Source: a virus. Taken from it: a DNA stretch of 42,352 nt. Of this stretch, positions 9,518 through 42,341 are shown one piece after another. Each line of letters opens with the position of its first letter. Position 1 is the stretch's first letter. The notes under the pieces were generated by a model. The model ran no database searches. It saw only the letters and a list, made by a program, of their open reading frames with translations, and had not been told where the DNA came from. The position numbers and the translations under genes were made by a program. The stretch spans positions 1-42,352 of IMG/VR virus record IMGVR_UViG_3300032073_000061; one strand, 5' to 3'.

Positions 9518-9976
9518 CTAATTAGGTACATCTCCATTTGTATCTTCATCATCATGTGGATTATCTTTTACATATCCATCTACATTTGTACCATCATAAT
9601 CGTCTGTAGCTTCCTTTATTTCGTAGTATCTACCAAGTACTTGACCTATGTCTTCGTATGCACCTTCAAGTCTTTGCTGTAACTTAGACATTTCTTTTGC
9701 AGACTCAATAAAAGTACCTTTTGCTTCTTTAAGAGACCCTATGTTTCTTTTTACGGTAACTTCATCAAACCAATCTTCTGTTTCATTTAGTGTAAATACC
9801 TCTGCTAAACCACATACACGATTTACCGTTTCACTTATTTCTTTTAAATCTTTACCAGATTTGTAAATACTTTGTCCAAGTGAACCAAAGTTGTTAACCA
9901 TCTCAATGAACTCGCTACGATGTTCTTTGTATTGTTGAGATTTCTTTTCGTTTAATAATTCTTTTAATTTAATCAT
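9518..9976 (-). CDS. Helical virion-associated candidate with L-x-E leader (152 aa)
   Basis: I do not recognise this protein. It begins MIKLKELLNEKK, an amphipathic leader ending in LNE, very like the start of the kinase at 21324-22088. In T4, short N-terminal leaders target internal proteins to the prohead and are cut by gp21 after L/I-x-E. The rest is mostly helical (residues 15-120) with an acidic Asp-rich tail. It follows a TATTTATA box 17 nt upstream of its start and has AAGGAG with 9-nt spacing. The position between gp21 and gp22 supports a head-internal or core role, which is inference. Confidence 0.6.
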   Translation of the reverse strand: MIKLKELLNEKKSQQYKEHRSEFIEMVNNFGSLGQSIYKSGKDLKEISETVNRVCGLAEVFTLNETEDWFDEVTVKRNIGSLKEAKGTFIESAKEMSKLQQRLEGAYEDIGQVLGRYYEIKEATDDYDGTNVDGYVKDNPHDDEDTNGDVPN

Positions 9977-9992
9977 AGTGTTTCTCCTTAGA

Positions 9993-10000
9993 TATAAATA
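9993..10000 (-). promoter_or_regulatory. TATTTATA box upstream of the 152-aa gene
   Basis: The coding strand reads GATATTTATATC in the 25-nt gap between two genes; the ribosome-binding site AAGGAG follows within 10 nt. An mRNA starting just after the box would have almost no leader before the Shine-Dalgarno, so this copy may serve only weakly or mark an mRNA-processing site instead. Confidence 0.4.
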
Positions 10001-10001
10001 T

Positions 10002-10523
10002 CTACTTCCTTAATTTTTTGTTAGGCATATATCGTCTAAATCCTTTACGAACTTTTCTCCATAACATCTTCATAAAAGGTCTTTCACCCTCATGTGTTCT
10101 GTTCCATTCACCAGTTTCAATTCCTCTTATAATATCTAAAGCATCATATTTTTTACTTTTTACTCCATCCATCATAATTTTTATCACTTGTTGTGATGCT
10201 TTTCCTAATACCAATGACATCTTTTTAATATCAAAATCTAAATGTTGTTTAGCCTCTGGGTTACTGAACTTAGCAGGAACTACATCAAAGTCTTCGTTTA
10301 CAGAATTGGTTGGATTTAATAAGTAATCACGAGATTTATTCAAGTAATCTGCTGATAATGTAATCTTATCCATCCACCAACTTGGTAAAGAGTCTTCTGC
10401 ATCCATATCTTTAAGTTTAGAATATAAATCCTTTAAATCTTCTGCAGAAGTTTTCACTTTTCTTAGTGCAGATGCGACATCAGTATGTCCATCTTCAATT
10501 ATTATTTCGTCAAATTTACCCAT
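10002..10523 (-). CDS. Conserved phage protein with SLPSWWMDK motif (173 aa)
   Basis: No enzyme motif is visible. The sequence DGHTDVASALRKVKTSAEDL (11-30) followed by SLPSWWMDKITLSADYLNKS (45-64) resembles a small protein I have seen in marine T4-like phages, where ASAxRK and SLPxWW...K are conserved; the family has no established function. The C-terminus is basic with Trp and Arg residues (WRKVRKGFRRYMPNKKLRK). The ATG overlaps the upstream stop (TAATG), so it is coupled to the 82-residue gene. The place in the core/head cluster suggests a structural or internal virion protein. Confidence 0.6.
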   Translation of the reverse strand: MGKFDEIIIEDGHTDVASALRKVKTSAEDLKDLYSKLKDMDAEDSLPSWWMDKITLSADYLNKSRDYLLNPTNSVNEDFDVVPAKFSNPEAKQHLDFDIKKMSLVLGKASQQVIKIMMDGVKSKKYDALDIIRGIETGEWNRTHEGERPFMKMLWRKVRKGFRRYMPNKKLRK

Positions 10524-10771
10524 TATTTATATATTTTTTCTAAACCAATTTTAAATTCTATAAGATGTCTCTTGTAAAGTTTCATTAACTCTATTGCCAT
10601 CTTTTTTTCACCCTTACCATCAAGAGCCTTGATTTTCTTTTTGATTTCATCTTCATACTTTTTATGTTGACGAGATAACCAACCTAAATGTTGTTCTTTT
10701 CCTAACTTGTCAAGTTCTTCATTTACTTCAAGGTCTTCAAACATCATCTTTTTGTAAGTAGAATTTTTCAC
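10523..10771 (-). CDS. Small charged helical protein (82 aa)
   Basis: I do not recognise this protein. It is highly charged and predicted helical, with many Lys and Glu residues (YEDEIKKKIKALDGKGEKK) and no cysteine, signal peptide or membrane segment. Its start overlaps the preceding gene by 4 nt and its stop overlaps the next start by one base, so it belongs to the coupled small-gene row between gp21 and gp22. The T4 row at this place includes small prohead core proteins, so a core role is possible but unproven. Confidence 0.5.
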   Translation of the reverse strand: MKNSTYKKMMFEDLEVNEELDKLGKEQHLGWLSRQHKKYEDEIKKKIKALDGKGEKKMAIELMKLYKRHLIEFKIGLEKIYK

Positions 10772-11103
10772 TTATTTTTATCCCTTTGTTGATTTTTTAC
10801 ATATGTTATTAATTTCATAAATGCTTGTGGTTCAACACCGAGTGCATCAACAACACCTGCTAATACTTGAGCTTGTTTCATACGATTTAATCCCGCTGAT
10901 TTTAAAGAATCAGTAAATTTTTCCATATATCTTTTCACTTCTGCAGGTAGTGGTGCTGCTTCTTCAATAGGTTCACCATGTTTTGCACCTGGAGATGTTA
11001 AGAATTTATCTTGATATTCTTTTGTAATATCCCCTAATCTCATAATGTTGTTATTTTCATCTCTGAATCTAATCTCATGTAACATTTCTTTTAGTTTTTT
11101 CAT
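10768..11103 (-). CDS. Small protein with L-x-E leader, possible prohead-internal protein (111 aa)
   Basis: The product begins MKKLKEMLHEIR, an amphipathic leader with a possible gp21-type site (LHE). The middle is Pro/Glu-rich, and residues ~53-105 form a helical domain (EVKRYMEKFTDSLKSAGLNR, then QAQVLAGVVDALGVEP). No known family comes to mind. It overlaps both neighbours by 4 nt in the cluster that lies between the protease and scaffold genes. The leader and context make a packaged internal protein the best guess. Confidence 0.55.
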   Translation of the reverse strand: MKKLKEMLHEIRFRDENNNIMRLGDITKEYQDKFLTSPGAKHGEPIEEAAPLPAEVKRYMEKFTDSLKSAGLNRMKQAQVLAGVVDALGVEPQAFMKLITYVKNQQRDKNK

Positions 11104-11630
11104 CTCATTTTCCTATATTTTTTTTCCATATCTTTGTCACCACTTATATAAGTATCAAACATATCTTTCAAATCTTTTGCTTTTGGTTTATTTCTATATT
11201 TAGACTTTACCATATACTTTAAAAACTTATCTTTGTCAACCAATTTCAACAACTTATCTTCATCGTAGTACAAGTTTTCATCCAACCCATCAAAATCTTG
11301 ATAAACACCTCTACCCTTTAGTTTAAGTTTTAATTTCGTAGGTTTATCGGTTGCTGATAAAGAAGATAATATTTCCGCTTTCTTTTTTGGACTTGCACTT
11401 CTATATGTCTTAGTGACATAATCATAATTCCTAATCATCATTTCTCTGGAATCTTTTTTAGAGTTACCATACTTTCTAAGAAGCTTGTAAACCTTTTTCA
11501 TATCGTCTTTATTTCGTGTCCCTTTATGTTTACTAATCTTTTTGGACATTCTATCACCGAGTCCCTCGTTTAAAAGTGATTTTTTTATCTCTTCCTTTAT
11601 AATTTTTTTAAGTATGTCTATTTCGCCCAT
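11100..11630 (-). CDS. Basic protein with LKKIIKEEIKKSLLNE leader (176 aa)
   Basis: Strongly basic, Lys-rich protein of unknown function. Its first 23 residues contain ILKKIIKEEIKKSLLNE, which joins the two leader types seen in this region: an L-x-x-I-I/V-K/R-E-E helix and an L-N-E end that gp21 could cut. The rest has several Lys-rich helices (KKVYKLLRKYGNSKKDS) and an acidic patch near 113-125. High basic charge would suit a DNA-associated internal head protein. The ATG lies inside the end of the preceding gene (13-nt overlap), so it is translationally coupled. Confidence 0.55.
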   Translation of the reverse strand: MGEIDILKKIIKEEIKKSLLNEGLGDRMSKKISKHKGTRNKDDMKKVYKLLRKYGNSKKDSREMMIRNYDYVTKTYRSASPKKKAEILSSLSATDKPTKLKLKLKGRGVYQDFDGLDENLYYDEDKLLKLVDKDKFLKYMVKSKYRNKPKAKDLKDMFDTYISGDKDMEKKYRKMR

Positions 11631-11812
11631 GCGTTCTTTCTCCGATATAGGTCATAAAATACTGCTGCTAACTCAAATCTTATAATCTGTCTTAACAATA
11701 CCAAATCCTTATCTGTAATTTCTTCGTTAATCATAGTAAGTGACTTCATATTTTTTACATATTTGACTTCTTCTCTGACAATCTGTCTTAGTTTTTCAAC
11801 TTTAATTTTCAT
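11618..11812 (-). CDS. Small helical protein with IVREE motif (64 aa)
   Basis: I place the start at the ATG at 11810-11812, giving MKIKVEKLRQIVREEV...; an upstream TTG at 11854 would add 14 residues but lies well inside the previous gene and has no supporting site. The LRQIVREEV helix resembles LKKIIKEEI in the next gene and LRYIVKELV in the 74-residue gene. The second half (LVLLRQIIRFELAAVFYDLY) is hydrophobic and helical. It overlaps both neighbours (11 nt and 13 nt). No family is recognised; a small core or internal virion protein is possible. Confidence 0.5.
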   Translation of the reverse strand: MKIKVEKLRQIVREEVKYVKNMKSLTMINEEITDKDLVLLRQIIRFELAAVFYDLYRRKNAWAK

Positions 11813-12272
11813 AATGAGGTAATACCCTAAATATGTGTCCAGTTGTGTACACAAAATGCTTCCTTAAATCACTTTTAAACCTTGCTGATAACATCCCTAC
11901 TCTGTGATGTATCTCATTTAGTCTCTTTATCATACCCTTTAAATCTTCTTCACTAATTTTTTCTTCTTTAATTGCCTTTTTTTCAATCTCAAAAAAGTCA
12001 TCTTGTATTTTTGCTAACTGAATAAGTATATCTTTACTCCCTTCCGTCATCCTCGCCTTCTTCAATGTGTTAATTGCTTTAACTGCACTTGGACATACAT
12101 CATAATGCTTACTATGAAAACCAAATAATTCTACTTGTTCGTGGTCATCCCCTACAAGACCAGAGTCATCTTGTTCTTCTATTGGTTTAAATACACTATG
12201 ATATGGATTTGAATGGACTTTTCCTACTTCAAATTTGTGTTTCTTAGGAATTAAATCCATCAAACTGACCAT
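11802..12272 (-). CDS. Helical protein downstream of the prohead protease (156 aa)
   Basis: Not recognised. Residues 1-70 are mixed, with VELFGFHSKHYDVCPSAVKA near 48-67, and residues 68-145 form long helices (ILIQLAKIQDDFFEIEKKAI, then DLKGMIKRLNEIHHRVGMLS). It begins 2 nt after the gp21 stop and ends overlapping the 64-residue gene, so it should be made together with the protease. That suggests a role in prohead core assembly. No motif gives a reaction. Confidence 0.5.
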   Translation of the reverse strand: MVSLMDLIPKKHKFEVGKVHSNPYHSVFKPIEEQDDSGLVGDDHEQVELFGFHSKHYDVCPSAVKAINTLKKARMTEGSKDILIQLAKIQDDFFEIEKKAIKEEKISEEDLKGMIKRLNEIHHRVGMLSARFKSDLRKHFVYTTGHIFRVLPHYEN

Positions 12273-12274
12273 TT

Positions 12275-12868
12275 TTATCTCTCCGTAAGAATTTCTGTAA
12301 TGATTCTGTTGATATTTGAGATAGGGTCGTTCTGATTATTGTCTACACTTTCATTCATAGGTCTTAAAAATGCACCATGTGTAGATGGATTTGATACGAA
12401 GTCAAATGCTATTAATTCAAAATCGTCTTGAACTTCGTTTACATCACCTTTTTCTTTGACACTACCAAGACCACGAGAACTAATTCCTAACTTTATTCCT
12501 GATTGAAATAGTTCTTTTAATATATTTCCAGATGGTGTTGATAAAACTTCCACTTCTCCAACTAAATCGTCTCCATCCCAACCCATATTTAACACATTAT
12601 GGGAAACATTTTGTAGATTTACTACTGAAGAATCTGGATGGTCAAGTTCTCCTAATGCTCTACTCTCTTGAATGAAACTATCCATATACTTTTTTGACTC
12701 TCTCATCAAAATTTCTTTAGGATAAATACGACCATTCTGATTTTTTGCCTCGGCTCTTTGTAAAACACCCTTTACAATCAGTTTACCATTGTTGTTCGCC
12801 ATTGATTCGTTAATCATTTCTGGGGAAACTTGGAATGGTATGTAATCAACTAATAAATTTTTACTCAT
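12275..12868 (-). CDS. 21: Prohead core protease gp21 (197 aa)
   Basis: Serine protease of the T4 gp21 (S77) type, which digests the scaffold and trims head proteins during maturation. Visible features are GKLIVKGVLQRAEAKNQNGR, the His motif GELDHPDSS, the Ser motif LGISSRGLGS, and the Asp region ELIAFDFVSNPS, in the expected order. The length matches T4 gp21 (about 212). I choose the ATG at 12866-12868 because GGAG lies 6 nt upstream and the preceding gene's stop overlaps there; an ATG four codons earlier (12880) lacks such a site. Expected cleavage sites are L/I-x-E, which occur in gp22, gp23 and several small proteins of this window. Confidence 0.92.
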   Translation of the reverse strand: MSKNLLVDYIPFQVSPEMINESMANNNGKLIVKGVLQRAEAKNQNGRIYPKEILMRESKKYMDSFIQESRALGELDHPDSSVVNLQNVSHNVLNMGWDGDDLVGEVEVLSTPSGNILKELFQSGIKLGISSRGLGSVKEKGDVNEVQDDFELIAFDFVSNPSTHGAFLRPMNESVDNNQNDPISNINRIITEILTER

Positions 12869-12869
12869 T

Positions 12870-13094
12870 TTATGCTCCAAACTTTTTGTATATTTTAGGA
12901 TTCCTTTTTGCTTTGGTATATCCGTACACTTTTTCTGCGTGTTTTACTTTTTTTTTGTCATCTTTCTTTTTATTCTTAGAAAATGCATAAGGTGTTTTAG
13001 GTGGCCCTTCTCCACCATCAAGATTAGCAGTTACATTTGCTTCTTTCAAATTTCGTTTAACAAGTTCTTTTACTATATATCTTAATTTATCCAT
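12870..13094 (-). CDS. Small basic protein at the gp67/gp68 position (74 aa)
   Basis: The product starts MDKLRYIVKELVKRNLKEAN, a helix of the same type as those on the 64- and 176-residue proteins, followed by a Gly/Pro stretch (GGEGPPKTP) and a Lys-rich tail. In T4 two small prohead core proteins (gp67, gp68) lie between portal and protease; this gene occupies that interval, though it is basic while T4 gp67 is acidic. It overlaps the previous gene by one base (TAATG) and abuts gp21. A core or internal protein is the best guess, based on position. Confidence 0.5.
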   Translation of the reverse strand: MDKLRYIVKELVKRNLKEANVTANLDGGEGPPKTPYAFSKNKKKDDKKKVKHAEKVYGYTKAKRNPKIYKKFGA

Positions 13095-18081: not shown

Positions 18082-18333
18082 TTATTCCTCGTGATATAAA
18101 CTATATTGTTTCTTTCTTTTTTTCCAAGCCATTTTAAGTGCCGTTCTGTGTTTTTCAGACTTTGGTTTACCTCTCAAAGAGTTGGAAATCTTTTCTCTCG
18201 TTTTTTGAGTTACTACTCTTCCTTTTCTTGATGTTACATTTTTCTTTCTAAACTCAGAATCTTGCCACTTTTTTTTCATCGCTTTAGATGTAGCTTCGGA
18301 AATCTTCTTTTTTGTTTCCATTGAATGTGGCAT
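18082..18333 (-). CDS. NUMOD3-type DNA-binding small protein, possible homing-endonuclease remnant (83 aa)
   Basis: Very basic protein with two copies of the helical motif found as NUMOD3 in GIY-YIG and HNH homing endonucleases: METKKKISEATSKAMKKKW near residue 5 and TREKISNSLRGKPKSEKHRT near 45. The second copy has the usual ...RGKP.SE.H... form. No nuclease domain is present in the reading frame or its immediate flanks, so this is either a remnant of a homing endonuclease or a free-standing DNA-binding protein. It lies between the NMNAT-ligase gene and the zinc-ribbon/terminase pair, 5 nt from the latter. Insertion next to terminase genes is common for phage homing endonucleases. Confidence 0.65.
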   Translation of the reverse strand: MPHSMETKKKISEATSKAMKKKWQDSEFRKKNVTSRKGRVVTQKTREKISNSLRGKPKSEKHRTALKMAWKKRKKQYSLYHEE

Positions 18334-18342
18334 TATTATCTC

Positions 18343-20775
18343 CTATCTTGTATATCTAAATAGTCCCATAATTTGGTTAATAGGTGCAAAAGTTCCAGTA
18401 AATTTGTATAAATTGTTTTTAAATACAAATGTTATTCCCTCACTTGGAACAATAGCATCAAATCCACCGATACTATCTAATCTATCAAGTTGTGTTTTTA
18501 ACTTATTTATTACATTGACATCGTCTGATGCATTTATTTTCTTTATCAAACTATTCAAATCTTTTACCATAATTCTTGTTGACTTTGATGGATTTGCAGA
18601 TAAAAAGTTAGTCATGTTCTTCATAATCTCTGCACCCAATTCAAGAAATAATTTCTCAAATGGTTCCATGTTCTTTTTGTATAATTTAGTATGGTCTTGT
18701 TTATCAGTAGACAATACCCAATCTAAAAATTTAGGGTAGTCTTTTAATTCTTTTTTCATCTGTGGTATCTTATAACTCTTATCAAAGAATGCCCATCTCT
18801 GTACTAACTTTACCATAATATCATTTGTTATATGTGGAAAGTCTGAAGAGTTTGCTCCATTCAAAATATATTCCATCCACCATTGTTGATGATATAAAGA
18901 AACAACATCACTATCTTTCAAAGAAAACTCATTCTTTAATTTATTTACTTGACTAAAGTAATATCCTTTTCTTTTTGAGTAATCTGAAACTTTCGGAAGT
19001 TTAGTTACTGGAATATCAGATATAGTATATGTTTTTTGTACACTTTGATTTATCTGTTTTATCATTCCAGAAAGTTTATTTGCTGCACTTCTTTCATCTC
19101 CAACAACATTTCCTTTGTCATCATATTCTTTTACACCATGAAAGTATAACATTGACAATCCATATGGTATTACATTTACAGTCTTTGGATACATTACTTC
19201 AAGTGACATAAACTTAGTACCTTGTCCAAATATTTTATCTCTTTGTTTCTTATTTAGTTTACCGATTGCTTTTCCTAAATCTTTCATAGCAAAAAAGAAT
19301 GCGTCTTCTATATCACCTCTACCTGCGAACATATCTTTTATTCCAGATGCAGTTAAACTATTCTTTCCTGCATTCTTTATATGTCCTTTGTTTCTTGCTG
19401 CTCTAAGTCCACCATCTTTCCATGTGACCATTATGTTTTGACCATCAGTTTTTTCTCTTACATATTCAAGTTTACCTTGTAATGCTAAATCTACTAATTC
19501 TTTCATATCTCCGAATGTCATGTCTTTGTCATCAAACGGATGTGAAAGGTGTCCATATGCTCCACCCATAAGTAATAACTCCTTGTGTGTTTTATTGTGT
19601 GGTAAATAGGGTAATAAATCTTTTACTATTCCATATCGTTCTTCTATTGTAGTAACATCTTCTTTTGGTTCTACATTTGTTTTAGATTCGTCTTCTTCTT
19701 TTTTATTAAATGCTAATAGTTCATATCCTGCTTGAGTTGCTATTCCAGATATATGTTTTTTCCAAGTGGCATATGCTTGTGTTCCCTTATAGTCTGCTCT
19801 ATTAATCGGTGTTAATGCACCCGCTTTACCTGCTGGAAAGAAACTAACTGCATCAACATATACTGGGTGGTCATAAAAATCTTCCCTTCCTAATACAAAA
19901 TCTACTAATTGATATCCAATTCTTTCTGCTCTTCTTTTTGCAGATGCCATAAATGTATTATGACTTGGATACATAAAGGTTGGCCCGTCATCTGTTGCAG
20001 TAAGACCTTTACTTGATTCATTCATAAATGCATCAATTAGTTTATCGTTTAAAATTCTTTTTTCTCCATCTGTCTTGTCTATCTTTTTTGGAAAGAAACT
20101 TAGTTTTCTCTCAAACTTTTTCTTTAAAACCATATCAACTCTTTTATCATACTTTCCAAAAAGAGTCTTAAACATATTCTGTCTTGTCTTATCATCTAAC
20201 TCTTGACCTAAAAGTTTTCTTACTATTGTTCCAGAAATTAGTTTACCACCAATCTTTAATTGTAATGGTGATGCTACAATAACATATCCTTGATTTTCGT
20301 ATGTATCAAAATCTTTTGTTCCTTTGAAACTCTGAAAGTATTTACCACCCATTAACCTACTACTATCTTTTTCTCCTACTGCTACAACTAATATTGTAGA
20401 ATCTGAGTCATATTTATTTAAAATTTCTGATGGTGCATATGGATTCTTTACTTGAACTATTTGAGATGATGGTATTGAAAACATAGTAGTCATTATAACT
20501 TTTTTTTCTTTAAATCCTAATGGTGACCTACCAGTTTCAGTTTTATTTGATGTTGCTATAAAAACATTTTTCTTACCAAACTCACGAACAAGTTGAGAAT
20601 ATGAGTGATGATGACCTTTATGAAATGGTTGAAATCTTCCAGGGTATACAACTACTACATTGTTCTTTTTTAATTTTAATTCATCAAGTTTATTGAACGC
20701 TAATAGTTGAGTTTTCTTAGTCTCTTTACTAAGAATATCTTTAACTAAACTTTCTGTTAATACATTTAAACTCAT
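18343..20775 (-). CDS. Fusion of NMN adenylyltransferase-like domain and RNA/DNA ligase-type nucleotidyltransferase (810 aa)
   Basis: Residues ~38-195 form a Rossmann-type adenylyl/cytidylyltransferase: VVVVYPGRFQPFHKGHHH (HxGH at 52-55) and ISGTIVR at 180-186 match the NMN adenylyltransferase class (NMN + ATP to NAD). Residues ~398-810 carry ligase-superfamily motifs: motif I EKTDG with K442 as likely AMP-accepting lysine, RAARNKG (458-464), SLEVMYP (E526, motif III), EGITFVF (E779, motif IV) and LYKFTG (K791, motif V). A ~250-residue mostly helical insert separates motifs III and IV. Residues ~255-360 form a further domain I do not recognise. Whether the ligase half seals RNA or DNA, or only transfers AMP, cannot be told. 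The leader MSLNVLTESLVKDILSKE resembles other leaders here. A sigma70-like promoter lies just upstream. Confidence 0.82.
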   Translation of the reverse strand: MSLNVLTESLVKDILSKETKKTQLLAFNKLDELKLKKNNVVVVYPGRFQPFHKGHHHSYSQLVREFGKKNVFIATSNKTETGRSPLGFKEKKVIMTTMFSIPSSQIVQVKNPYAPSEILNKYDSDSTILVVAVGEKDSSRLMGGKYFQSFKGTKDFDTYENQGYVIVASPLQLKIGGKLISGTIVRKLLGQELDDKTRQNMFKTLFGKYDKRVDMVLKKKFERKLSFFPKKIDKTDGEKRILNDKLIDAFMNESSKGLTATDDGPTFMYPSHNTFMASAKRRAERIGYQLVDFVLGREDFYDHPVYVDAVSFFPAGKAGALTPINRADYKGTQAYATWKKHISGIATQAGYELLAFNKKEEDESKTNVEPKEDVTTIEERYGIVKDLLPYLPHNKTHKELLLMGGAYGHLSHPFDDKDMTFGDMKELVDLALQGKLEYVREKTDGQNIMVTWKDGGLRAARNKGHIKNAGKNSLTASGIKDMFAGRGDIEDAFFFAMKDLGKAIGKLNKKQRDKIFGQGTKFMSLEVMYPKTVNVIPYGLSMLYFHGVKEYDDKGNVVGDERSAANKLSGMIKQINQSVQKTYTISDIPVTKLPKVSDYSKRKGYYFSQVNKLKNEFSLKDSDVVSLYHQQWWMEYILNGANSSDFPHITNDIMVKLVQRWAFFDKSYKIPQMKKELKDYPKFLDWVLSTDKQDHTKLYKKNMEPFEKLFLELGAEIMKNMTNFLSANPSKSTRIMVKDLNSLIKKINASDDVNVINKLKTQLDRLDSIGGFDAIVPSEGITFVFKNNLYKFTGTFAPINQIMGLFRYTR

Positions 20776-20844: not shown

Positions 20845-21321
20845 TTAAACTTCAAGAGCTCTTCTAAACCAACCAAAATAGAACTTCTCTAAGTCTGGTT
20901 TACGAGTCACTAAATCAGCATAATACTTAACACGATAAGCACGAACTCTGTCTAATTCTACACCATCCATAGCTGCTATAGTTTTTGGCCCCATTCCACC
21001 ATCTACTTTTAGACCTGCTCCTTTAGCATTTGCTGCTCTTTGTAATATTTTGACTGCTCTTCCTCTACCTTGATTTACACACATATCAAAATAAATATGT
21101 CTTAGGTCTTCTGAAAGTGATTCTACTTTATTTCTATCCCAATAGTGTTCCTTGTAGATTTCTATTGCACCTTCTTTTGTTAAATTTTTTATGTCCACAT
21201 CTGGATGTGACCTTTTTGCTACTCCAAAATTTGTTTCGCCACCTGGGTCTTTTGGGTCATTTACATAACCACCCTCGTGGTGTAATACTACTTCTATTAT
21301 TTCATCAAAGTTTACTAACAT
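20845..21321 (-). CDS. GH108-type lysozyme/N-acetylmuramidase (158 aa)
   Basis: Peptidoglycan-cleaving enzyme of glycoside hydrolase family 108. The N-terminal motif HHEGGYVNDPKDPGGETNFG (14-33) is the family signature, with E16 as the likely catalytic acid. The C-terminal half (NAKGAGLKVDGGMGPKTIAA, then YYADLVTR) is the peptidoglycan-binding type-3 domain usual in this family. The length is typical. There is no signal peptide or membrane anchor, so release would need a holin (none seen here) or the enzyme acts from the virion. The start is an ATG preceded by GAGGA, 2 nt after the kinase gene's stop. Confidence 0.9.
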   Translation of the reverse strand: MLVNFDEIIEVVLHHEGGYVNDPKDPGGETNFGVAKRSHPDVDIKNLTKEGAIEIYKEHYWDRNKVESLSEDLRHIYFDMCVNQGRGRAVKILQRAANAKGAGLKVDGGMGPKTIAAMDGVELDRVRAYRVKYYADLVTRKPDLEKFYFGWFRRALEV

Positions 21322-21323
21322 AA

Positions 21324-22088
21324 CTATTTCCTCTTCTTAAGTATTTTCTGGTGTCTAATCCAATTTTTTCCTTTTGGATTTTTTGTTGGTTTTTTTACAA
21401 ACTTATCAATGTAAGTTTTTGCTAAGGAATCAAATTTCTTTTTTGCGTCATCTTCTTCTAAATGTTTTGAATTGTCAACAACAACAATATTTCCTTTAAA
21501 CAATCCTTGAAATCTTCCAATATTTTTTTGACATGCGTGCCAAGAATCGGTGACTAATTTTTTTGGTAACACTCTTTTTCTTGTATTATTTCTATGTAAT
21601 GCTATTTCCATAGAAGTATTTATAAAAACCATATAACAATCATATCCAATTCTTTCAAGTCTTGACTTATTATCTGCTATTTTTGCATAGTCATCACCAG
21701 TACCATCTATAATCATACCAAGTCTTCCGTTCTCGTATAGTCTCTGTCTTTCTTTTGTTAATGCTTTTGTGTAATCTCTTAATCCACTATGAACACCTTT
21801 AACTGGTTGGTCTGTCTTCTTATCAAACCCCGTTAAATCTGCAAACACTTCGTCTGGCATTGCATCCAACTCAGTTCCAAAACCAAATTTGTTTAGTGCT
21901 TTTTCAAATTCTGAATCATAGTTAACCATTTTTAAACCAGTGTATGATAGATTTATTTTCTTAGGTAAACCAAACAAACCTCTTGCTGCATATGTCTTTC
22001 CACTACCTGGTCCTCCTGCAAGAAATACTACTTTTAATATTCCCTTGTCAAAAACACCTTCGTTTAATAAATCTACTAATTTAATCAT
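21324..22088 (-). CDS. P-loop kinase, polynucleotide-kinase/zeta-toxin-like (254 aa)
   Basis: ATP-dependent kinase fold with Walker A GGPGSGKT at 25-32, an acidic IIDGTGDD segment near 126-133 and an Arg-rich lid (HRNNTRKRVLP, 165-175). This layout fits AAA_33 proteins such as T4 polynucleotide kinase's kinase domain or zeta-type kinases. No phosphatase domain is attached, so it would do only the 5'-phosphorylation half of Pnkp if it acts on nucleic acid ends. The substrate is not determinable. The leader MIKLVDLLNEGVF precedes the P-loop and closely resembles MIKLKELLNEKK of the 152-residue head-cluster protein, hinting at packaging into the capsid. A TATTTATA box lies ~23 nt upstream; the lysozyme and NMNAT-ligase genes follow. 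Confidence 0.75.
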   Translation of the reverse strand: MIKLVDLLNEGVFDKGILKVVFLAGGPGSGKTYAARGLFGLPKKINLSYTGLKMVNYDSEFEKALNKFGFGTELDAMPDEVFADLTGFDKKTDQPVKGVHSGLRDYTKALTKERQRLYENGRLGMIIDGTGDDYAKIADNKSRLERIGYDCYMVFINTSMEIALHRNNTRKRVLPKKLVTDSWHACQKNIGRFQGLFKGNIVVVDNSKHLEEDDAKKKFDSLAKTYIDKFVKKPTKNPKGKNWIRHQKILKKRK

Positions 22089-40823: not shown

Positions 40824-42341
40824 TCAAAGATTAAATTTATTTTTTATCCTTTTAAATTCGTATTTTGCCCACCTTTCGGCTCTCTCTTCCCATTTATTAT
40901 TATCATGTGGGTCTAATCCTTTGTATGTAGCCATTGTTCCTGCTTGAGTGTATTTTTTCATAAACTTCTTTACACCAAGTTGTCTTGCATCAAGAGCATG
41001 TTTAATTTCATGTAAAATAGTTATAAGAAATTCTTTTACACTTGGATATGACCTTCTAAGATATATTGTATCTGTTTCTGGGACATACTCTGCTAATGTA
41101 CTTCCTGTAGCAAATTTAACTTTTGATTTTAAATTATATGCTTTTACTATCTCAGTTGAGATATCTAAGTAATCTATTCTTTCTTGTAGTAGAGATTCAG
41201 TTAGTTTATCTATCTCAATGTATCCTTCACTTTCTTCATAACTATAGTCATAATCTTCAGTTGCTCCCAAATCAGTAACTTTATAGTTTGCTGTATATTG
41301 TTCTCCACCACCCTTTGTACCAAATATATCATCTGCTACTGGAAAATCTACTTGTTTATATCCACCATTGTCAAACCATAATTCTGGTTTTCCAGTTAAA
41401 GTACCAAGTTCTCGTTTTTCTCCTTTTCTAATAAACATCGTATCTGGTTCCCCAGCATCCGCTGAAAATCCACCACCAACTGAAGTACTTTCTTTGATTT
41501 TGTTTAGTATCCTAAACTTAGATGCCGATTTTCCGTTTATTTCTAAATCTCCTTTATCATTCATCTGTATAGTTTTAATTACTACTTTCTTATTTTTAAA
41601 TTTTCCCATTAAAACGGTATCACCAATTTCAAGTGGTAACTCAAATCCCTCAACTTGTATAGAATCGTTTATTCCTCTACCACCTTTATCCATAGTTGTT
41701 GCGAACTTTTTTAGTTTTGGAAACGCTCTAAACTGACTTAATTTTTTTTGTTTAGTCCACTTCATCTTATCAAAAACTTTCATTCTCATATGTTGTTTTA
41801 CGATATAGTAAATATCCAACACATTTCCACCTTGTGATTTTATCCATTTTTTGTACTTTAGTACGAGTTTAGCAGAAACATGCTCATGTCCATGATGTGT
41901 CCAAAAACCTTTCTTTGGATGTATTTTTGCCGTTGAATCTTTACCTATATCGTGGAATAATGCAGCAAGTGCGAAGTCTATATCACCAGTTCTTAGTGCT
42001 CTATTTGTAACTGCTATAGTATGTTTTAAAACATTACCTTCTGGATGAGCATCTCTTCGTTGGTCATAGTTCTTAAGATTATAAACCCTCTTCTTTAAAT
42101 CAATAGGAAGAGCGTTATAAATATCTTTAAATTTCTTTGGTTTCTTACGGACTGCTATCTCTTTTATTTTTTTCTTTGTGTCGGTTTTTGTAAAGGGGCC
42201 TCTTCGTAATGTTGAAAATTTTACGGGTGTCTCAATACCGAATAATTTCTTTGGTGCTAAAATTCTCAATGTAATCATCTTTCTACTATTATCAACACCC
42301 AATGTTTCAAATTCTATTTCTTTATATTTCTTACCCTTCAT
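40824..42341 (-). CDS. Fusion of HD phosphohydrolase domain and HExxH metallopeptidase-like domain (505 aa, start possibly outside window)
   Basis: Residues ~75-215 form an HD domain of the type attached to CCA-adding enzymes: EGNVLKHTIAVTNRAL (H107), AALFHDIGKDSTAKIH (HD 130-131) and THHGHEHVSAKLV (H149-H154). In CCA enzymes this domain hydrolyses 2',3'-cyclic phosphates and 2'-phosphates. Residues ~232-285 look like a small beta-barrel. Residues ~385-505 contain ILHEIKHALDARQ with HEIKH at 444-448 and WEERAERWA (484-492), a probable zinc peptidase site (zincin). No nucleotidyltransferase domain is present in the visible part. The ATG is only 11 nt from the window edge and has no clear ribosome-binding site, so the gene may extend further upstream. 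The gene's role is unknown. Confidence 0.75.
   Translation of the reverse strand: MKGKKYKEIEFETLGVDNSRKMITLRILAPKKLFGIETPVKFSTLRRGPFTKTDTKKKIKEIAVRKKPKKFKDIYNALPIDLKKRVYNLKNYDQRRDAHPEGNVLKHTIAVTNRALRTGDIDFALAALFHDIGKDSTAKIHPKKGFWTHHGHEHVSAKLVLKYKKWIKSQGGNVLDIYYIVKQHMRMKVFDKMKWTKQKKLSQFRAFPKLKKFATTMDKGGRGINDSIQVEGFELPLEIGDTVLMGKFKNKKVVIKTIQMNDKGDLEINGKSASKFRILNKIKESTSVGGGFSADAGEPDTMFIRKGEKRELGTLTGKPELWFDNGGYKQVDFPVADDIFGTKGGGEQYTANYKVTDLGATEDYDYSYEESEGYIEIDKLTESLLQERIDYLDISTEIVKAYNLKSKVKFATGSTLAEYVPETDTIYLRRSYPSVKEFLITILHEIKHALDARQLGVKKFMKKYTQAGTMATYKGLDPHDNNKWEERAERWAKYEFKRIKNKFNL

Follow-up and report, generated by a model that had tools for sequence, protein, structure and literature searches.

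The window analysed here is the whole of virus record IMGVR_UViG_3300032073_000061, a 42,352-base contig that encodes a T4-type terminase, portal, major head protein and prohead protease. Between TerL and a group of apparent tail genes lies a gene for a chain of 810 amino acids (18343–20775, minus strand, ATG start), in which a nucleotidyltransferase domain of the HIGH superfamily, resembling that of nicotinamide mononucleotide adenylyltransferase (NMNAT), is fused to a domain of the ligase superfamily. The order along the chain, as judged from the open reading frame (ORF), AlphaFold2 (AF2) models and relatives, is a short leader, the NMNAT-type nucleotidyltransferase (NTase), a variable middle and the ligase-type domain; the NTase and ligase-type domains are referred to below as the N and C domains. 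An earlier note on this DNA, made from the letters alone, had described this ORF without giving its strand; the gene is real, lies on the minus strand and carries all of the motifs listed in that note, namely HKGH (residues 52–55), ISGTIVR (180–186), KTDG (442–445), R458-xx-R461, E526, E779-G780 and K791. The two domains and superfamilies that it named were likewise borne out, with an NMNAT-type fold for residues 38–220 and a ligase-type fold for residues 398–810, and we regard the domain assignments as very nearly certain.

The N domain is a HIGH-superfamily nucleotidyltransferase

The N domain (residues 38–220; 20116–20664, minus strand) was assigned from a Pfam match, from structure comparison with VIA and from a profile match to the NMNAT 1f9a. 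Pfam CTP_transf_like (PF01467) covers residues 43–187 with an E-value of 1.2e-7, above the family cut-off. The HKGH and ISGTIVR motifs, located from sequence and alignment, are encoded at 20611–20622 and 20218–20238, respectively, both on the minus strand. In a 15-row alignment only the last histidine of HxGH is invariant, the first being replaced in three relatives (L117, L120 and L044) that carry GxHH. A profile built from 15 N-domain sequences has the archaeal NMNAT 1f9a as its best match (E 3e-6), the alignment consisting of a best stretch of approximately the first 60 columns and a weak second stretch at the SGTxxR end, with the middle of the domain left out. In VIA, the model is closest to the NMNATs 2r5w (Z 11.8) and 1m8f (Z 11.5), with nicotinic acid mononucleotide and phosphopantetheine adenylyltransferases at 11.5 to 11.0. 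Taken with the model, these matches make it certain that the N domain belongs to the HIGH superfamily and has an NMNAT-type fold. Since NMNATs are tied in fold with the nicotinic acid mononucleotide and phosphopantetheine enzymes, the comparison leaves an NAD-restoring role of the domain undecided, and the NCBIfam NMNAT models score far below their cut-offs on it (24.7 bits against 127, 23.9 against 397 and 23 against 181.2). The partner substrate may be either nicotinamide mononucleotide (NMN) or an RNA end, both of which are candidates.

The C domain has a ligase-type fold

Because the VIA list for the whole chain was filled by the N domain, the C domain (residues 398–810; 18346–19584, minus strand) was modelled and compared alone, and AF2 folded it with 58 sequences to a pLDDT of 86 and a pTM of 0.80. 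The earlier note had recognised that its assignment would fail if this region showed no ligase fold; Foldseek and VIA both returned ligases. Foldseek ranks 1 to 32 are RNA or DNA ligases and rank 33 is a capping enzyme, the top match being a Palaeococcus RNA ligase (E 4e-3, probability 0.90). All 50 rows listed by VIA belong to the ligase/capping superfamily, RNA ligases coming first. The best match, a Naegleria RNA ligase (Z 7.9, 4.1 Å, 186 residues aligned), has a moderate score that falls just below the Z of 8 under which VIA warns of chance arrangements, and it is followed by T4 Rnl1 and a fungal tRNA ligase (both Z 7.6), DNA ligases (4.9–6.9), archaeal RNA ligases (6.0–6.4) and capping enzymes (5.0–5.3).

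Eight residues of the C domain, K442, D444, G445, R461, E526, E779, G780 and K791, are the same in all 70 aligned rows, which comprise partly overlapping alignments of 58 and 12 rows; the same residues are invariant in the 58-row set. We take these residues to represent ligase motifs I (KTDG, residues 442–445, with K, D and G invariant; 19441–19452), Ia (R461; 19393–19395), III (E526; 19198–19200), IV (EG, residues 779–780; 18436–18441) and V (K791; 18403–18405), all on the minus strand. The order of the motifs, and the position of K442 just after a strand, suggest that this lysine lies in the nucleotide pocket. According to the secondary structure of the model, a mostly helical insertion (approximately residues 562–776; 18448–19092, minus strand) separates the conserved FHG/EYD strand region from motif IV, and we know of no RNA ligase with such an insertion of ~200 residues ahead of this motif. 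DNA ligases and capping enzymes carry an OB-fold domain after the adenylation core, for which the 19 residues that follow K791 to the end of the chain are too short. A search of PDB sequences with a C-domain profile gave nothing relevant. The single-theme list of structures and the invariant motifs together confirm, at the level of the model, that the C domain is a member of the ligase/capping superfamily, with only a lean towards RNA rather than DNA as its substrate. The RNA ligases that it matches best use ATP.

The fusion is widespread in aquatic phages

Relatives were collected in scans whose loci overlap, so that the counts below are not independent. A first scan gave 42 relatives among 43 candidate stretches, and a scan with the C-domain profile confirmed at least 542 of 600 stretches, 80 loci being kept. 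In a set of 125 loci, duplicate contigs and the window included, the C domain is found in 74 ORFs with an intact 5′ end; 56 encode the N and C domains, 14 a kinase followed by both, and four the C domain alone, so that both domains are present in 70 of the 74. After removal of near-duplicates the proportion is 40 of 43 (29 N–C, 11 kinase–N–C and three C alone). A further 23 ORFs containing only the C domain are cut at their 5′ end by a contig edge. Of the four C-only ORFs with intact 5′ ends, L065 and L092 begin within the linker or conserved sequence. L046 (LR756500) is a ligase that stands alone, and the following gene has an NMNAT-like domain at its end. In the fourth, L011 (L011:3306–5662), a frame change in the linker, either a sequencing error or real, splits the NMNAT and ligase halves into separate ORFs, the N part lying immediately upstream. 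An additional scan yielded 55 loci, with intact ORFs of 11 kinase–N–C and nine N–C forms, 34 loci cut at the 5′ end (five kinase–N–C, nine N–C and 20 C only), and two C pieces from one frame-broken locus. Eight more loci came from a scan of genome contigs, all in metagenome bins or uncultured assemblies, and are presumably phage contigs binned with cells. Four of these have both domains, one of them with the kinase, and four were called C only. These four C-only loci include L285, from a 400-kb contig assigned to an Erysipelotrichaceae bin; its C domain is only 26% identical and yet an NTase lies in front of it (NTase profile E 2.4e-5), implying that the fusion is old.

These sequences indicate that the N–C fusion is no accident, and we consider a functional link between the NTase and the ligase highly probable. 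The protein is widespread in aquatic phages and little known; we found no published description of an NMNAT–ligase fusion in the literature searched. The region between the two domains (residues 221–397; 19585–20115, minus strand) is modelled with low confidence, and in relatives it is absent or occupied by other inserts, DUF5661 being found in nine of 17 relatives scanned. A ParB_N domain, matched in one of the same 17 with a best E-value of 4e-4, precedes the NMNAT domain in L045:2569–5316 (LR756508); its attribution to L045 was made by eye.

A P-loop kinase as a probable partner

Two genes upstream of the fusion gene, the window encodes a P-loop kinase of 254 amino acids with a leader of its own (21324–22088, minus strand; Zeta_toxin E 1.2e-6, phrog_12810 E 8e-35). 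This is a stand-alone copy of the kinase that is fused in front of relatives, with 47–55% identity to the fused copies, and a Zeta_toxin/AAA_33 kinase lies ahead of the NMNAT domain in five of six long relatives scanned, the exception being L115. The best PDB sequence match of the window kinase is the 5′-kinase domain of C. thermocellum Pnkp (4mde, E 9e-4), followed by a tRNA(Sec) kinase at 0.04. Starting from the kinase, a scan of 65 non-redundant newly fetched loci found NTase and ligase together in 40, the NTase only in three and the ligase only in none; because its profile combined nine fused copies with the window gene, and because part of the contigs had been sampled before, this sample is biased towards such loci. 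Kinase–NTase fusions also exist (L246 and L273). The presence of a kinase nearby or on the same chain suggests a kit for mending broken nucleic-acid ends, and a functional link of all three activities, NTase, ligase and kinase, is in our view likely. In Agrobacterium phage Atu_ph07, a member of this kinase family occurs in gp053 (L127:5254–7590), preceded by a long N-terminal stretch resembling an ADP-ribosyltransferase on inspection by eye; the protein has an LxE leader. A GH108/PG_binding_3 endolysin gene (20845–21321, minus strand) lies between the kinase and fusion genes of the window, and a short NUMOD3-containing, homing-endonuclease-like ORF (18082–18333, minus strand) directly follows the fusion gene.

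DUF6267 and a cytidyltransferase as a probable split counterpart

In T4-like cyanophages and pelagiphages the fusion has what seems to be a split equivalent. Pelagibacter phage HTVC008M contains, in order, gp127 (DUF6267, Pfam PF19782, E 3e-135), gp128 (a small module), gp129 (the same kinase family, E 9e-63) and gp130, an NMNAT-like protein annotated as a cytidyltransferase. A tblastn search with gp127 hit 471 phage records, the match spanning 80% or more of the protein in 174; Synechococcus and Prochlorococcus phages predominate. An NTase gene lies downstream of DUF6267 in all nine isolate phages opened (HTVC008M and eight picked by hand from 40 listed), directly in five, after one gene in three and after two genes in one. 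The window-type N profile recognises seven of these NTases (E 2e-11 to 8e-6), which are therefore true relatives of the N domain. In metagenomic sequences, the NTase follows in 53 of 80 DUF6267 loci, with too little downstream sequence in 14, and the kinase is present in 34. The pair is mostly located beside recombination or primase-helicase genes in the isolates, and three cyanophages have an annotated 'head protein' within a few genes of it.

All 77 rows of a DUF6267 alignment share the invariant order HxxH, KxDG, EG and K, which is similar to that of the C domain, as is the long spacer ahead of EG. In the deeper of two hhalign comparisons of the C domain with DUF6267, the alignment extends over almost the whole length and keeps motif I in register, at a non-significant E-value of 0.1. 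DUF6267 is absent among Pfam matches to the fusion protein up to E 1, and a PDB sequence search with a DUF6267 profile found nothing relevant. On the basis of motif layout and gene neighbourhood, the C domain is probably related to DUF6267, a family for which we found no paper naming it in the literature searched.

The gp128 module also occurs inside fusion proteins and in another gene of the window (40824–42341, minus strand). This encodes 505 amino acids with an HD domain (Pfam E 3e-9) and a weak match, below cut-off, to the zincin MPTase-PolyVal (E 0.0035). It carries the FKNK module of the kinase–NMNAT–ligase fusions, its residues 1–50 being 88% identical to a stretch inside L115 and L052, and the protein could be a further end-healing or polyvalent partner.

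A leader suggestive of virion delivery

Residues 1–25 of the fusion protein (20701–20775, minus strand) form a candidate capsid-targeting or prohead-protease propeptide, as judged from comparison of leaders and from the cleavage rule L/I-x-E. Similar short leaders ('M.KLTEWL.KPFL.E' and variants) are present on many full-length relatives irrespective of which part comes next, be it the NMNAT domain, a kinase or a small module, and comparable starts are seen in the window kinase and the stand-alone ligase. An [LI]xE motif falls within residues 4–24 in 63 of 69 non-redundant N-termini, compared with 15.5 (sd 3.3) after shuffling, related sequences not being independent. In T4, gp21 cleaves after L/I-x-E, and IPIII needs no more than its first 10 residues for packaging (PMC9026906); a gp21-like protease is encoded in the window at 12275–12880 (phrog_207, E 1e-56). 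The cluster of small ORFs between the major head protein and portal genes (9518–13094, minus strand) encodes candidate scaffold or internal head proteins, and five of these ORFs (9518, 10002, 10768, 11100 and 12870) have [LI]xE near the N-terminus.

T4-GC190, which in P-HM2 is annotated as a cytidyltransferase directly after DUF6267, belongs to the core virion proteins of cyanophages, carries no annotation beyond putative citidylyltransferase and was detected in S-SM1 virions (PMC3037559). NMNAT-like or cytidylyltransferase proteins were also found in virions of S-SCSM1 and S-CREM2 (PMC9602691, PMC10665884). These reports concern the cyanophage NTases, and the passages available from them do not state detection of DUF6267. 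We consider it somewhat more probable than its opposite that the fusion protein is packaged in the virion.

Other ligases and NAD salvage genes

Thirteen records, including the window and two contigs, were searched for four ligase families. An ATP-dependent DNA ligase is present only in DLP_6 and Rnl1 only in Mel-JY01, and neither the NAD-dependent ligase (PF01653) nor, above cut-off, Rnl2 occurs in any of the 13. None of the four families was found in HTVC008M, Melnitz, S-PRM1, P-HM2, S-WAM1, C48C1, ACG-2014e or P-RSM6, RtcB not being part of the search. As a control, PF09511 matched none of 14 control genomes and did match Mel-JY01. A general rule that such phages lack ligases is contradicted by a 'ligase' counted among the S-CREM2 genes (PMC10665884) and by a 'tRNA ligase' cluster in two cyanophages (PMC3037559). 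The NadV/Nampt family (PF04095) is absent from nine of ten records and present only in LR756500; five of the ten are contigs, which may be fragments, and the window record is not among them. We therefore set aside salvage by NadV or the NAD+ reconstitution pathways (NARP) for records other than LR756500, and also an NAD-dependent ligase, given the absence of PF01653 from the 13 records and a fold nearest to RNA ligases.

A possible role in nucleic-acid end repair

We propose that the fusion is a virion-delivered composite enzyme for nucleic-acid end repair in T4-like aquatic phages, acting on RNA more likely than on DNA, and give this reading a probability of roughly 0.43. It draws on the domains, their fusion, its spread, the kinase linkage and the split counterpart, the activity being predicted from these. 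The leader would target the protein into the prohead core and would then be clipped by the gp21-like protease of the phage. After injection the kinase, separate here and fused in relatives, would phosphorylate 5′-OH ends left by host nucleases, as its Pnkp-like sequence suggests. The C domain, adenylylated on K442, would seal the 5′-phosphate to a 3′-OH as an ATP-dependent RNA ligase. The N domain, consistent with its fold, would transfer adenylate to a phosphorylated partner, either NMN to give NAD+ or an RNA end. A role as a countermeasure to host defence, which the earlier note had suggested, is plausible.

Several observations count against end repair. The structural evidence has the moderate Z scores noted above, no Foldseek match at E 1e-3 or better and unrelated folds from rank 34 on; the leading RNA ligase exceeds the best DNA ligase (Z 6.9) by just 1.0, so the preference for RNA over DNA is weak, and Pfam RNA_ligase, RNA_lig_T4_1 and DNA_ligase_A_M have no match on the C domain up to E 1. 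For the kinase, which matches Zeta_toxin as well, a family with small-molecule substrates, RNA is thus no more than a candidate substrate, and 22 of the 65 kinase loci have neither NTase nor ligase in reach. Pfam recognises no 3′-phosphatase on the fusion chain or the kinase gene, which leaves 3′ healing unexplained. For the split counterpart, hhalign between the C domain and DUF6267 is not significant (E 0.22 and 0.1), the kinase lies within ~4 kb of the DUF6267–NTase pair in only one of the nine isolates (HTVC008M; in Melnitz it is far away), and 13 of the 80 metagenomic loci lack the NTase despite room for it. As to delivery, 96 of 242 other long ORFs also carry an [LI]xE leader, so the motif alone is weak, and the authors of the virion proteomes warn of carry-over (PMC9602691, PMC10665884).

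The main rival to end repair, which we consider rather unlikely, is that NAD+ is made in parallel: a polyvalent injected protein would combine two independent countermeasures without chemical coupling, the NMNAT domain rebuilding NAD+ after NADase defences and the ligase and kinase repairing cut tRNA. The wide variation of middle and N-terminal modules (the single ParB_N and nine DUF5661 among 17 relatives) and the kinase–NTase fusions of L246 and L273 are consistent with such an arrangement, as is a published account in which RNA repair and NAD+ salvage by phages count as counter-defences and NadR combines an NMNAT with a P-loop kinase in one fusion (PMC9503650). The same source says that every NadM phage has NadV, whereas PF04095 is missing from nine of ten records here, and the N domain scores far below the NCBIfam NMNAT equivalogs. 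Moreover, eight of the nine isolate DUF6267 loci have the NTase without a kinase of this family within ~4 kb, and an NTase beside a ligase-like gene in the absence of the kinase points to a single pathway for NTase and ligase. In the improbable event that the ligase fold is not a sealer, it would act as a nucleotidyltransferase that, with the kinase and NTase, makes or attaches an activated nucleotide such as a cap, a modified base or a protein adduct; capping enzymes in the VIA list (Z 5.0–5.3), the match of the kinase to Zeta_toxin and a large helical insertion unlike the ligases familiar to us would fit, but the best RNA ligases lie 2–3 Z units, and the archaeal RNA ligases ~1, above the capping enzymes.

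The earlier note had also suggested an NAD-linked ligase with its own cofactor supply, in which the ligase would release NMN and the N domain would remake NAD+ from NMN and ATP. This tidy chemical loop would suit an NTase and a ligase that nearly always occur together, but its sequence support is a trace LigA match in one relative (L046, E 0.055), far below cut-off. Against it stand the best structural matches to RNA ligases, the lack of PF01653 in the 13 records and, in the family scans, the lack of any hit to Ia, the NMN-binding domain that is typical of LigA; we regard this explanation as very improbable and the least likely of those considered. T4 gp63 is both Rnl1 and the catalyst of tail-fibre attachment, and the fusion protein might likewise serve mainly as a virion assembly factor. 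The location of the gene between TerL and apparent tail genes, the 'head protein' near the pair in three cyanophages and the NTase in cyanophage virions (PMC3037559) would accord with this, whereas the invariance of catalytic residues and the position of the pair beside recombination or primase-helicase genes in most isolates opened argue that it is very improbable.

A more far-reaching form of the end-repair proposal, which we rate as unlikely, is that the kinase, the HIGH-superfamily adenylyltransferase and a structurally new class of ligase constitute one pathway, fused in many T4-like phages of aquatic origin and split as DUF6267–(kinase)–cytidyltransferase in cyanophages and pelagiphages, that is virion-borne and provides the main ligase of phages without the four families searched; instead of simply making NAD+, the adenylyltransferase would then either have RNA or DNA ends as its substrate or couple ligation to this cofactor. 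Reading the pair as ligase and adenylyltransferase gives a testable function to DUF6267 and T4-GC190 and to the fused form in the window. It could explain nucleic-acid sealing in the eight isolate phages without the four recognised ligase families, and would link a virion-borne 'NMNAT' to repair as well as to NAD+.

Comparison with known systems

T4 Pnkp with Rnl1, and fungal Trl1, pair a kinase with an RNA ligase, and the fusion shares this kinase association. In common with T4 Rnl1, the Naegleria and archaeal RNA ligases and Trl1, it has the nucleotidyltransferase core fold with motifs I, Ia, III, IV and V in order; it differs from the T4 Rnl1/Trl1 group in the lack of a Pfam ligase match, the ~200-residue helical insertion, the short C terminus and the fused HIGH-superfamily NTase. 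The N domain resembles NMNAT/NadM proteins (MJ0541, MTH150 and Francisella NadM) in fold and in the GRFQPFHxGH and ISGTxxR motifs, but falls below the NCBIfam cut-offs, has no recognised Nudix partner, lacks an accompanying NadV in nine of ten records and is fused to a ligase-like domain. NARP1 and NARP2 likewise represent phage enzymes of NAD+ metabolism with an NMNAT-like fold, but the PF04095 transferase is missing in nine of the ten records searched. Polyvalent proteins are large chains of exchangeable domains presumed to be injected, and relatives or neighbours of the fusion include ParB and peptidase modules; the hub MPTase domain is not on the fusion chain, and the passages available on these proteins contain no ligase–NMNAT combination (PMC5512222). 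The DUF6267 and cytidyltransferase pair (T4-GC71 and T4-GC190) differs from the fusion in being encoded by split genes, mostly in the replication region, with ligase-like sequence homology that is not significant; like the fusion, it combines a ligase-motif protein with a homologous HIGH-superfamily NTase and is sometimes accompanied by the same kinase family.

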